Positions 46,995 through 61,681 of a stretch of DNA of 64,000 nt are shown piece after piece. Each line of letters starts with the position of its first letter. Position 1 is the first letter of the stretch. Below the pieces are notes generated by a model, which had not been told where the DNA came from, searched no databases, and saw only the letters and a program-made list of their open reading frames with translations. The position numbers and the translations under genes are program-made. Origin of the DNA: Chloroflexota bacterium (GTDB lineage Bacteria > Chloroflexota > Anaerolineae > Aggregatilineales > Phototrophicaceae); assembly GCA_011523515.1 (NCBI GenBank), contig WTGO01000031.1:1-64000 (forward strand), given 5' to 3'.

Positions 46995-47468
46995 ATGTCA
47001 AATTGGTGGGGAACGCGCAAGAATGTCTCAGCCCGCCTTGTCTGGGAAGTCGAGGCGATGAAAGCCGCCTTTGGCAATACTTTTAAGTTGGTCGTGCCTC
47101 CTTTTGGCGGATTGCTCTACTGGCAAGGCGTGGTCGAAATCAATATGAGCATCCTGGACTCGCCCCGTCACAGTCTGAAACTGGTTTATCCCAAAGAGTA
47201 TCCCAATCGCCCGGCTGAAGCGTATTGTGTCAAACCGCGGATTTACAGCGAAAAACACCAGTACGAAGACGGCCAGCTCTGCCTGTTCAATCCGAAAGAT
47301 GGCGAACAATACGGGTGGAATCCGTCCAAATCGACGGCAGTGACCGTTGGCGGCTGGGCGATTCAGTGGCTTTACGCTTATTACACTTGGCGCTCCACCG
47401 GCAACTGGCCCGGCATAGAAGAACGGATCAAAGCGAGCACGCCCTTGCCGCGCCGCCGGAGACGCTGA
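46995..47468 (+). CDS. E2/UBC-like ubiquitin-conjugating enzyme fold protein
   Basis: LKLVYPKEYPNRPAEAYCVKPRIYSEKHQYEDGQLCLFNPKDG...TVGGWAIQWLYAYYTWRSTGNWPG: UBC-like YPxxPP region followed by GQLCLF with candidate catalytic Cys96. Confidence 0.78.
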   Translation: MSNWWGTRKNVSARLVWEVEAMKAAFGNTFKLVVPPFGGLLYWQGVVEINMSILDSPRHSLKLVYPKEYPNRPAEAYCVKPRIYSEKHQYEDGQLCLFNPKDGEQYGWNPSKSTAVTVGGWAIQWLYAYYTWRSTGNWPGIEERIKASTPLPRRRRR

Positions 47469-47470
47469 TC

Positions 47471-48667
47471 ATGCGGACAACGGATGAACCGGAATTCGTC
47501 AGGCTGATGCAGGCCGAATTCGAACATGTCAGGAATCGCTTGCGGGGGATGGCCATGATTTCACGCGGAATCGTACCCAATCTGGTCCTGTCGCAGCGAG
47601 CTGTTGAACGCATGCTGTCGGCTGCCAGCCAATTCATGGCGGACGAAACCGGCGAAGCCATGGTGGGTTTTGTCATAAACGATGACACGCCGGAAGGTCT
47701 GCCCACGATCTACGTCCTGGACACAATATCGCCGGATGAAACGGCTGTGCGCCGCTCGCACACATTTCAGCAAGGCGACGCCCTGCAAGACGAGATCATC
47801 TGGTGGCTGCAGGAGAATTGGCATTTTCATCGCGAACGCCATCGCGGCAGCGAGGCGCTTGAGGATCGCTTCGATGTTCCGCTGCGGTATTTGGGGGATT
47901 GGCACAAGCAACCGGGGTCCATGATTCAACCTAGCCATGGCGACCACATGACAGCGCTGTCCTGGCTCGACGATGATGACCTCGGCATGGATTCACTGCT
48001 GGTGCCAATTGTTACCGTAGGCCATGCGCCCATCATAGGCGAGACGGAACTGGCGGTAAACTATATCACCGTGCCGATGGAAAATGGCTATGATATGCGG
48101 GTGGACTGGTGGTATATCCACCGCGATGTGCGCAAATTTCAGCCGGTGCATCCGGTCGTCGTGCCCGCCGATAACTTGCCGTCAATGATGAAATACGGTT
48201 GGCATGTGGTGCTGGCTGATCGCCTGACCGACGAGACTTTCGCGCTGGCGAACGATGGGCTGCTGGTTCGCACGCTATTCTACGAATGCGACGGCGAGGT
48301 GCCGCTGGAATTCTGCTTTATCACCCTACGGCAAGACTCCTCGTCCTTTGTCCTCTTCGTCACTCAGCATGACTATCCGCAACGCGACCCGCAGGCTTAT
48401 CATGCGCCCTCAGTCGCAGGTGTCAACTTGATGGATCCGGTCGCCAGTTTTCAGCTGCTGTGGGAGGTCGCCACACGGATTGAAGACCCGCCGGGCTGGC
48501 AGTGGTCCAGCGACAAACAGCTCATCGACTACCTCATCGCGATCGAGGTCGAAATGGGATTGCGGCAACCGCCGATTCAGATTATTCCGGTGTTCAATCA
48601 CGCCGACGAGGCAATCGGCGATGCCGACGATTTACAATCCGATTCCGAGGCGCAGGAGCATGACTGA
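47471..48667 (+). CDS. JAB/JAMM (MPN)-like domain protein with additional C-terminal domain
   Basis: ETGEAMVGFVINDD...VPLRYLGDWHKQPGSMIQPSHGD aligns with the JAMM E...HxHx7Sx2D motif, but with Q in the second His position; sits between E2-like and E1-like genes. Confidence 0.7.
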   Translation: MRTTDEPEFVRLMQAEFEHVRNRLRGMAMISRGIVPNLVLSQRAVERMLSAASQFMADETGEAMVGFVINDDTPEGLPTIYVLDTISPDETAVRRSHTFQQGDALQDEIIWWLQENWHFHRERHRGSEALEDRFDVPLRYLGDWHKQPGSMIQPSHGDHMTALSWLDDDDLGMDSLLVPIVTVGHAPIIGETELAVNYITVPMENGYDMRVDWWYIHRDVRKFQPVHPVVVPADNLPSMMKYGWHVVLADRLTDETFALANDGLLVRTLFYECDGEVPLEFCFITLRQDSSSFVLFVTQHDYPQRDPQAYHAPSVAGVNLMDPVASFQLLWEVATRIEDPPGWQWSSDKQLIDYLIAIEVEMGLRQPPIQIIPVFNHADEAIGDADDLQSDSEAQEHD

Positions 48668-49586
48668 CATGTGGCAACGCGTAGAGCGGCTCATCGGTGC
48701 GGACAATTTGGGGCGACTCGCCGAGAAAAAGGTGGCTGTCGTCGGGCTGGGCTCGGGCGGCGGATTTGTTGCCCTCAGCTTGGCTATGAGCGGCATCGTC
48801 AATTTCGTCCTGGTGGACAACGACGACCTGGAAAGGGGCAATGTGACCCGTCACGTCTGTGATCTGCGTTATGTCGGCCGCAACAAAGCCGAGGCCGTGG
48901 CTGATCTGATCGAGAATCGCAACCCTGGGGCGCAGGTCGAATCGCGCGCCGGCTTGATCGAGGACCATTGGGATTGCCTGGACGATGTGGACATCTTGGT
49001 CGCGGCCGTTGATAGCGAGCAAGTAAAATTCACGATCAACGAACAATGCCTGAAGAGAGGCCTTTGCGCGTCTTACGCCGGCGTCTATGAACGCGGCGAA
49101 GGCGGCGACCATGTGATCATTCGGCCCTTTGAAGGACCCTGTTATGCTTGCTGGTCGGAGGCGACGCGCGATGGCGTCATGGTCGCCCTAAGCCCGGGTG
49201 GTGATCTGGATTATGGCATGATCGGGGAAGCGGGCACTCTGGAAGCCGAACCGGGCCTCTGGGTCAACGTCACCAAAGTGGCCGGCATTCAGACGGATCT
49301 CATCATTAATGAGCTGTTGCGCGGCGCCAGCGCTCACGAACCTATGCCGGCCAACACGCTGATCGTCACCAATGGCTACATGGATATATTTGAGGGGCAA
49401 GAAAACGAGCCCCATACCGGCGTCTGGCTCGAAATCGGTCGCGATCCCGATTGCCTGGTCTGCGGGGAGCGGCTCAAACAAGGCGTGAGAAAGCTGGTCG
49501 AGAGCGATGAGGGCAGTATTTCCCTGGCCGATCTGGCGGCTTCCGGCCTGACGACCGACATCGAATTTGAAGATGAGGACGACTAG
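48660..49586 (+). CDS. ThiF/MoeB/E1-like adenylyltransferase
   Basis: KVAVVGLGSGGGFVALSLAMSGIVNFVLVDNDDLERGNVTRHVCDLRYVGRNKAEAVADLI: E1-like nucleotide-binding signature; CYAC and CLVC Cys pairs. Overlaps the JAB stop (ATGACTGA). Confidence 0.9.
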   Translation: MTDMWQRVERLIGADNLGRLAEKKVAVVGLGSGGGFVALSLAMSGIVNFVLVDNDDLERGNVTRHVCDLRYVGRNKAEAVADLIENRNPGAQVESRAGLIEDHWDCLDDVDILVAAVDSEQVKFTINEQCLKRGLCASYAGVYERGEGGDHVIIRPFEGPCYACWSEATRDGVMVALSPGGDLDYGMIGEAGTLEAEPGLWVNVTKVAGIQTDLIINELLRGASAHEPMPANTLIVTNGYMDIFEGQENEPHTGVWLEIGRDPDCLVCGERLKQGVRKLVESDEGSISLADLAASGLTTDIEFEDEDD

Positions 49587-50134
49587 CTCGCTTCAAGCTT
49601 TTGCCGCCAACTTGCCACGATATTTTTGAGCGTTTGTCGATGATCCAGGCGCTCTTTTTCCAGGAAACGGCAACGATGCAGCAACGTGTCTCCGGCATCA
49701 GGCGGCCCGCCGCCATCTTGATAATACAAATTAAAGTGATTCTGAATCGCCACACGATAGACGCCGGCGTCGTAGACCGGCGCGCGATACGGCAACTGGC
49801 GCTCGGCGATGCTTAGCAAGATGCGTTCGTCTTCGTAATGCGCCCAAACCCCCAGCAGGCACAGGGTTTGATAACCGTGGTATCCCTTGTGATGAAACCA
49901 GACGACCACGGCGGACCAAGCCGGACCGCGCAATGGCTTGGGACCGTAACAAAGCACTTGCTGATAATCTCTGCGCGTCAGCTGGGCCAGCGTGTCGTAG
50001 GCGTTGATGCGATCAAGGGCGCGATCCTGTGGTGTCTGCGGCAGCAGCTCGCGCCTTCTGTGGCCGAAGGGGCGTCCCTCGGCGATACGCCTGAGAATGT
50101 CGTTATAGCGTTCGTCGTCGCGATCAGCCTTCAT
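49583..50134 (-). CDS. hypothetical protein
   Basis: 183-aa ORF, tail-to-tail with the E1-like gene (4-nt overlap); no family recognised. Confidence 0.6.
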   Translation of the reverse strand: MKADRDDERYNDILRRIAEGRPFGHRRRELLPQTPQDRALDRINAYDTLAQLTRRDYQQVLCYGPKPLRGPAWSAVVVWFHHKGYHGYQTLCLLGVWAHYEDERILLSIAERQLPYRAPVYDAGVYRVAIQNHFNLYYQDGGGPPDAGDTLLHRCRFLEKERLDHRQTLKNIVASWRQKLEAS

Positions 50135-60546: not shown

Positions 60547-60804
60547 ATGAGCGACGAAAACAGAAACAACAACGAAGACAATGATGAAAACCTGAACGGT
60601 CCTTCGGCCGAAGATATGGATGATCGCCTGGAGCGCCTCGGCGGCGAGCCGGCGCCGGCCATAACACCGGAAGAATTCGAGCGCTTGCAGAAGGCGGGTC
60701 AGGTACACATCGACTCGCGCGGACGAGTACGGACCGCGCGCCGCAGCGGCGCCGAAGCGGGCGTATCGCTGCGGAAGCGGCGGGCCTGGTACACATCCGG
60801 CTGA
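60547..60804 (+). CDS. small acidic hypothetical protein
   Basis: 85-aa ORF with upstream purine-rich AGAGGTAGGTC near the ATG; no family recognised. Confidence 0.5.
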   Translation: MSDENRNNNEDNDENLNGPSAEDMDDRLERLGGEPAPAITPEEFERLQKAGQVHIDSRGRVRTARRSGAEAGVSLRKRRAWYTSG

Positions 60805-61021: not shown

Positions 61022-61681
61022 ATGACTGGATTAATCAGTTTCGATCACGTCTCAGCGGCGCTGGCGCTGGACAACTTTGACTCAGCTAAAGCTCGGCAGC
61101 TTATGGCGCCAGTGCCGCGCGGATGGCAAAAGCGCGACACGCCGCCGACGCCCGCGGCCGTGATGATCCTCATTTTTGCGGATGCGCCGGGACGTCTAAG
61201 CCTGGTGCTGACCTTGCGCAATTCTGAGTTGCGCGGGCATAGCGGGCAGGTGAGCTTTCCCGGCGGACGACAAGACCCGCAGGATTCGAGCCTGACATGC
61301 ACCGCGCTGCGCGAGACCTACGAGGAGATCGGCATCCGCAGCGACACCCTGCGCATACTCGGGGGCTTGCCTTGTGTCTATATCCCCACCTCTCACTTTG
61401 ATGTAGCGCCGATCGTAGCGCGATTCGACGGCGGGCCAGCCTTCGCACCCAATCCTGCCGAGGTCGCCGAGATATTTAGCTTTGGTCTGGATGAGCTGCT
61501 GCAGCCGGGCTACAAACGCGTCGAAACGCGCCGAATCCGCGGCATCGACGTGCGAGTACCCTTCTACGCTGTGCACGGTCACAAAGTATGGGGCGCCACC
61601 GCCATCATGCTAAGCGAACTTGAAGGTCGTTTACGCCGCGTCTTGCCGCATTGCGTGCTGCATTCGTTGGCGACCTTGTAG
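61022..61681 (+). CDS. NUDIX hydrolase, CoA pyrophosphatase-like
   Basis: LRGHSGQVSFPGGRQDPQDSSLTCTALRETYEEIGI: UPF0035 plus Nudix motifs of CoA pyrophosphatases. Confidence 0.92.
   Translation: MTGLISFDHVSAALALDNFDSAKARQLMAPVPRGWQKRDTPPTPAAVMILIFADAPGRLSLVLTLRNSELRGHSGQVSFPGGRQDPQDSSLTCTALRETYEEIGIRSDTLRILGGLPCVYIPTSHFDVAPIVARFDGGPAFAPNPAEVAEIFSFGLDELLQPGYKRVETRRIRGIDVRVPFYAVHGHKVWGATAIMLSELEGRLRRVLPHCVLHSLATL

Follow-up and report, generated by a model that had tools for sequence, protein, structure and literature searches.

Most members of one Anaerolineae order carry genes for an E2-like conjugating enzyme, a JAB protein fused to a UBC/RWD-like domain, an E1-like adenylyltransferase and a tiny fourth protein, which we call X, as one linked set that has been inherited vertically. 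The representative analysed here lies in a stretch of 64,000 nucleotides from a Chloroflexota genome (contig WTGO01000031.1, positions 1 to 64,000; the window), where E2, JAB and E1 form a compact operon and X is found farther downstream (Table 1). The operon is one that falls outside the known types and yet works like an E1-E2-JAB system, and X, with its invariant tail, may be a tag that is attached to other proteins. We give very nearly an even chance to the reading that the set would constitute a resident, non-mobile conjugation system in the style of ubiquitin, with X as a tiny dedicated modifier that does not have the beta-grasp fold.

Table 1. Positions of the components of the gene set, and of one neighbouring marker gene, in the window
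Feature	Position	Strand	Evidence
E2, UBC-like conjugating enzyme, 157 aa	46995..47468	+	PADLOC E2 3.3e-15; UBE2L3 match
JAB/MPN protein, 398 aa	47471..48667	+	PADLOC JAB 2.3e-8; AlphaFold; Foldseek
JAB/MPN domain, about residues 37-235, including WHKQP..PSHGD	47579..48175	+	Secondary structure of the model; conservation
UBC/RWD-like C-terminal domain of JAB, about residues 244-365	48200..48565	+	AlphaFold model; profile comparison
E1-like adenylyltransferase, 308 aa, single ThiF domain	48660..49586	+	Pfam ThiF 7.2e-29
X, 85 aa, proposed modifier	60547..60804	+	3' of E1 in other genera; co-occurrence; KRRAWY; distant homologues
NUDIX hydrolase after X; marker of the ancestral neighbourhood, outside the claimed mechanism	61022..61681	+	Pfam NUDIX 5e-12; synteny

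The E2-JAB-E1 operon

An earlier note on this DNA had described three consecutive ORFs on the same strand as a candidate conjugation operon, and everything that it read directly from the letters is present. The JAB gene starts 2 nt past the E2 stop, the E1 start overlaps the JAB stop (ATGACTGA), and codon 47280-47282 encodes Cys96 of E2 within GQLCLF, as part of a motif GQLCLF...WNP. The translational coupling that the note had suggested is supported by this spacing alongside the gene set, and its assignments of the three proteins to the E2, JAB and E1/ThiF families were borne out by the profile and structure searches.

The first protein matches the E2 models of PADLOC, with values down to that in Table 1, and human UBE2L3 was reached at about 1e-5 both by phmmer and by hmmsearch with a profile of the E2 family; in the alignment, Cys96 falls on the catalytic Cys and is followed by W-x-P. 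Cys96 is invariant across the E2 alignment. With its Cys in the aligned, active-site position in these comparisons, where the earlier note had expected it, the protein is predicted to be a UBC-type E2. An HPN motif before the Cys is absent from this E2, in which the segment reads IYSEKHQYEDGQLC; the motif is common but not universal in E2s, and some known bacterial E2s are missing it too.

The co-occurrence of the three genes, which the earlier note had made one test of its proposal, was confirmed. The identical order E2-JAB-E1 was found in all 20 other genomes that were fetched (one locus hits the contig end before E1), and of 80 named genome loci, 79 have E2 and JAB side by side, so that the grouping is not due to chance. 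The linkage of the set is not absolute, since at one locus (L118) E2 stands without JAB or E1 inside 6 kb, and in one genome (G335) E1 and X lie on a different contig from E2. In the window, an ORF of 183 aa on the minus strand (49583-50134), for which Pfam gave no match, overlaps the E1 stop in antisense.

A JAB protein with an altered JAMM motif

A Pfam search of the JAB protein gave no match, and its first link to the JAB family is a PADLOC model (Table 1). Its AlphaFold model (pLDDT 86, pTM 0.80) retrieves BRCC36, Rpn11 and CSN5 in Foldseek (E 1e-7 to 1e-5, probability 1.00), and from this model the protein is predicted to have the MPN fold of JAMM metallopeptidases. The description as JAB/JAMM-like thus stands for the fold. 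It does not extend to the metal site, a point that the first reading had missed: the motif is E62..H145-K-Q147..S155..D158, in which the second zinc-ligand His is a Gln, so that HKQ takes the place of the HxH in a complete E..HxH..S..D site. E62, H145, S155 and D158 are invariant. Among the 94 distinct motifs from the fetched loci, 86 have HxQ at the second ligand and 8 have HxH (HKH); among the latter are a locus of a distant family (f73), another from genus g6 of the window's own family, and members of family f5. This natural variation from HxH to HxQ offers a probe of what a JAB protein does without a full metal site.

The Foldseek list includes a structure of BRCC36 labelled 'QSQ mutant' (5cw5), which we take to be a version with the HxH motif changed to disable the enzyme; changes of this type are used to disable JAMM enzymes. 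Judged by the exchange of a metal-ligand His for Gln, full deconjugating JAMM activity of the JAB protein in this genome is doubtful. One may argue that it is an active JAMM isopeptidase all the same, with Gln147 as a metal ligand and reversible conjugation intact, which would be compatible with X as a modifier. The invariance of the four other residues points to a site under selection and HKHP is kept in some lineages, but the prevalence of HxQ and the presumed effect of the changes in 5cw5 make this reading unlikely, though well worth considering.

The C-terminal domain of the protein has, in the model, a topology of one helix, four strands and two helices, and a catalytic Cys is absent. Its profile scores 30.1 against the E2 alignment, the maximum among 150 column shuffles being 20.0. 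At two distant operons (L174 and L175), a second JAB with RWD-like and TPR-like membrane parts was noticed by eye, as was an SPFH/band-7-like protein, which hints at a membrane-linked complex.

The E1-like protein

The E1 of the operon is MoeB-like and has a ThiF domain with GxGSGG and structural zinc cysteines, C161/C164/C265/C268, in two CxxC pairs. These four are its sole invariant cysteines, the next-best Cys column reaching 15 of 20, so that the protein does not share the conserved catalytic Cys of canonical E1s and of ThiF proteins with a thioester. The other E1 in the genome is MoeZ-type and has a Cys in the loop PSCAEGG; the same loop in the operon E1 reads DYGMIGEAGT.

Near the C-terminus of the E1 (window positions of about 49510-49560) there is a conserved SL[DA]xL motif. 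The same motif, in the form SL[DE]xL, is also found at the C-terminal end of proteins with a membrane anchor whose genes directly precede E2 in families f2-f5 (loci L066, L067, L068, L070, L071, L073, L074 and L075). Across 344 other proteins, the motif is about 28 times commoner in the final 45 residues than in the remaining parts, and most of the matches are the upstream proteins. By its sequence, it is possibly a docking motif shared by the E1 and these proteins.

That other proteins may be tied to the system in this way would suit a reading in which X is a dedicated substrate or conjugate partner and E1 and E2 act on the C-terminal tail of another protein. However, the upstream proteins are not beside the operon in the window's family and X is nearly always present, and we regard this reading as very improbable. 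The upstream membrane proteins of family 5 were also considered as the modifier itself, and were rejected because of this same absence beside the operon in the window's family.

A small fourth component

According to the earlier note, the operon was a minimal variant without an obvious Ubl. The view of a minimal set that has no candidate for the modifier has to be revised, as the comparison of 20 neighbourhoods exposed a small conserved gene, X, directly after E1. This position immediately 3' of E1 is the one that X takes in most genera other than the window's. In the window itself, 11 kb separate the two genes and the first reading had passed over X, and in other compared members of the window's genus X is displaced by about 10-15 kb. 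The NUDIX gene, which in other genera is found close downstream of E1 and X, still adjoins X in the window. Neither this gene nor the downstream PCMT gene was accepted as a part of the system; both are missing from several loci and serve as synteny markers only.

X consists of an acidic, disordered and variable N-terminus, a helix, a short hairpin and a conserved C-terminus, SLRKRRAWY plus TSG. All 50 distinct copies have KRRAWY. A hypervariable stretch of 0-6 residues comes after it, and in 30 of the 50 the first of these is Gly or Ala. The motif search had demanded TL/SL-x-KRR-x-W-aromatic, such that the invariance of KRR and W in these copies is partly built in; a motif-independent alignment found the same residues invariant in 23 sequences. 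Searches of Pfam, NCBIfam and PHROGs with X returned nothing significant. AlphaFold gives, at low confidence (pLDDT 66, pTM 0.30), a helix-hairpin-helix arrangement without a beta-grasp. Past the Tyr the tail is variable, a small C-terminal Gly or Ala being the trait of beta-grasp Ubls. With its abrupt end of conservation and its short variable tail, X resembles a Ubl precursor.

No Ubl gene was recognised in the 20 fetched neighbourhoods of 15-20 kb, and a search of the window's own genome (94.9% complete) with two Pfam families gave no ubiquitin-family match above the cut-off. To this extent, the statement of the earlier note that the operon comes without a cyclase, a RING protein or a recognisable Ubl was correct. 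The genome has two ThiS-family genes, one of which adjoins the other, MoeZ-type E1.

Distant relatives of X

At other Chloroflexota loci (L174, L175, L178, L183-L187 and L190-L192), an X-like ORF is located directly upstream of E2, and most of these loci have E1 and/or JAB. In the distant proteins the helix and the hairpin (SLEDLKRQL..PVFVDSQGRL) are kept, and the linkers differ greatly in length. Most of the proteins end in ...[VL][KR]P[SQT]RWF, often exactly at the Phe and in some cases with a short tail. The profile of the order's X scored 24.7 against distant X over the helix and hairpin alone, and none of 150 column shuffles scored above 16. The distant kind of E2 is patchy (9 of 159 genomes of its class), which sets it apart from the core system found in the window's order.

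It appears plausible, if somewhat short of probable, that with X a new class of protein modifier has its first member: a mini-protein of helix, hairpin and flexible linker with an invariant aromatic end (such as KRRAWY or KPSRWF) that would be activated by E1 and E2 without a ubiquitin fold, in a system resident throughout the order.

A locus on a Mesorhizobium plasmid (L197, 3774-7489) has a 57-aa ORF of similar plan (ending in LGGEY) before an E2, followed by an E2-like paralogue with Ser at the Cys position, an E1, a JAB with HTHH, an MBL-fold-like protein and a patatin. It is possibly a proteobacterial relative of the X system and, as a single example, a lead only.

A proposed mechanism

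In our model, the MoeB-like E1 would adenylate the C-terminus of X, and the activated X would go directly to Cys96 of E2, a direct transfer that we infer from the lack of an invariant catalytic Cys in the E1. From E2, X would then be moved onto amino groups of target proteins. The JAB-RWD protein would originally have trimmed the tails of X and/or removed X, which it may still do in HxH lineages, while in HxQ lineages, including that of the window, it may be an altered-metal enzyme or else a pseudo-peptidase scaffold that would hold E2/E1 via its RWD-like domain. The nearest precedent for X as a modifier is Cap2, which uses the C-terminus of CD-NTase, a protein without a beta-grasp fold, for conjugation (PMC10097602); a 2025 review describes Cap2 as the sole known such system that activates a non-beta-grasp protein (PMC12355090).

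If X is a modifier, it would represent a new class of modifier and would show that E1-E2 cascades can operate with modifiers other than those of the beta-grasp kind. The locus is a concrete and testable candidate, with one invariant Cys in E2, a tiny partner whose tail is invariant, and over 100 orthologous sets.

Against the modifier model speaks the invariant end of X, an aromatic residue that is Tyr in the window and Phe at the distant loci; known E1s want Gly or Ala at the end of the modifier. For Cap2 of CBASS, which needs a Gly or Ala end, a change from Gly to Trp abolished conjugation (PMC10097602), and in view of this need X could be a docking or regulatory protein. Furthermore, if JAB is dead here, nothing obvious removes the TSG tail. 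The modifier may instead be a Ubl that is too divergent for Pfam, or one that is encoded elsewhere.

The N-termini of the distant E2s at L174 and L186 (ILRPMRWYAAW and RLKPTRWYAAW) resemble the C-terminus of X, as if they were a copy of the tail motif.

These considerations lead to the alternative that X is an obligate adaptor, scaffold or regulator of E1 and E2, E3-like or allosteric, and that the real modifier is a beta-grasp protein from elsewhere, for instance of the ThiS/MoaD type. X lacks a recognisable fold, its aromatic end would be unusual chemistry for a modifier, the LKPTRWYAAW-like segments in distant E2s suggest that the motif may serve docking, and the two ThiS-family genes could supply the modifier. 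On the other hand, one of these two genes sits beside the MoeZ-type E1, no Ubl gene was recognised in the 20 fetched neighbourhoods while X is nearly always in the genome, and the conservation of X stops as abruptly as in Ubl precursors. We therefore consider an adaptor role rather unlikely, and continue with X as the modifier.

Distribution and inheritance

The genome is of the Chloroflexota/Anaerolineae type, and the named relatives include entries from Aggregatilineales and Phototrophicales. E2 is present in 137 of the 154 genomes of the order and in 87 of the 90 of high quality, X in 138 and E1 in 139 of the 154, counts that were tallied by hand from tables and include draft MAGs. All three are found together in 132 genomes and none in 13, with one missing in 9, often incomplete assemblies. 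Families f6, f60 and f61 make up 12 of the 13 empty genomes, E2, X and E1 being absent together there. This co-occurrence is at the level of clades and largely of one origin, and does not amount to many independent events. The E1 tree fits the family labels with the minimum number of changes, a congruence that indicates vertical inheritance.

The earlier note had proposed to look for a defence-island context, and such a context was not supported. The system is single-copy and nearly universal in most of the order, and its neighbours in the window are housekeeping genes: an ABC transporter, a dUTPase, an SSB, a uracil-DNA glycosylase-family protein, an acetyltransferase and the NUDIX hydrolase. 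Together with vertical inheritance, these features argue against a mobile defence island, a reading that we reject. In the plasmid and viral collections that were covered outside Chloroflexota, no relatives were found on viral contigs, and the plasmid matches are remote, with no close relatives among them.

A phage-defence system of the Bil or CBASS kind is a related but separate reading. The best profile matches of E2, JAB and E1 are defence models of PADLOC, and more distant relatives of the E2 adjoin CD-NTase-like genes and a SAVED effector. Nevertheless, we hold this reading to be quite improbable, given the inheritance and surroundings described above, the lack of close relatives on viral contigs or plasmids, and the fact that no effector gene is linked to the operon. 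For the resident conjugation system that we favour, a physiological role in housekeeping or stress regulation is more likely than one in phage defence. The distribution suggests that an E1-E2 system can serve bacteria as core cellular machinery and not as a mobile weapon.

Comparison with known systems

Nothing specific was found in the literature on such operons in Chloroflexota. Type II CBASS likewise combines E1, E2 and JAB, in that Cap2, an E1-E2 fusion, and Cap3, a JAB, act on the C-terminus of CD-NTase. Like the CD-NTase, X as the proposed modifier would not be a beta-grasp protein and would be recognised through a flexible tail at its C-terminus. In contrast, E2, JAB and E1 are separate genes here, the JAB carries a UBC/RWD-like domain as a fusion, no catalytic Cys is conserved in the E1, inheritance is vertical and X is tiny and dedicated; a CD-NTase or effector gene is absent among the neighbours of the operon.

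BilABCD is another operon that contains E1, E2 and JAB. Its BilA is a protein with two Ubl domains, and its BilD is made up of IAD, AAD and a Cys domain (PMC11354881), whereas here no recognised Ubl lies beside the operon and the E1 of 308 aa has a single ThiF domain. Iyer et al. (2006) described operon types 6a-6e, in which genes for E1-like, E2-like and JAB proteins stand together and which are sporadically distributed (PMC1779556). In 6a-6c and 6e, the E1 usually forms a fusion with E2 or JAB; type 6d includes a small protein together with an E2 that lacks the usual histidine, type 6e an RWD-like inactive E2 domain, and both carry beta-grasp Ubls (PMC1779556). None of the five types is described with an X-like protein or with order-wide conservation, and of their partners (beta-grasp Ubl, MBL, nucleotidyltransferase and metal-binding protein) none is conserved beside the operon at 20 loci. 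As features that define type II CBASS, Bil and types 6a-6e are missing here, we do not file the operon under any of them, and the suspicion of a distinct subtype has gained support.

With respect to modifiers, Pup is small, largely disordered and without a beta-grasp (PMC5286830). In a comparison with Pup and UBact, X as proposed would share these traits of Pup. However, Pup uses the PafA ligase (PMC8599861), as opposed to E1 and E2 here, and a search of the genome (94.9% complete) for proteasome-family genes, which go with a PafA-type ligase in Pup and UBact systems, gave no match.

Type II-short-like CBASS is mobile and defence-associated, and shares with the present system a stand-alone E2 of the same kind. 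Such E2s adjoin CD-NTase-like nucleotidyltransferases at five Chloroflexota loci (L176, L177, L179, L180 and L188), which resemble type II-short CBASS and at which E1 or JAB was not seen beside E2. The nucleotidyltransferases end in ...HR[FY][YF]G plus a tail, an end comparable with the ...RRAWYG and ...SRWF signatures of X.
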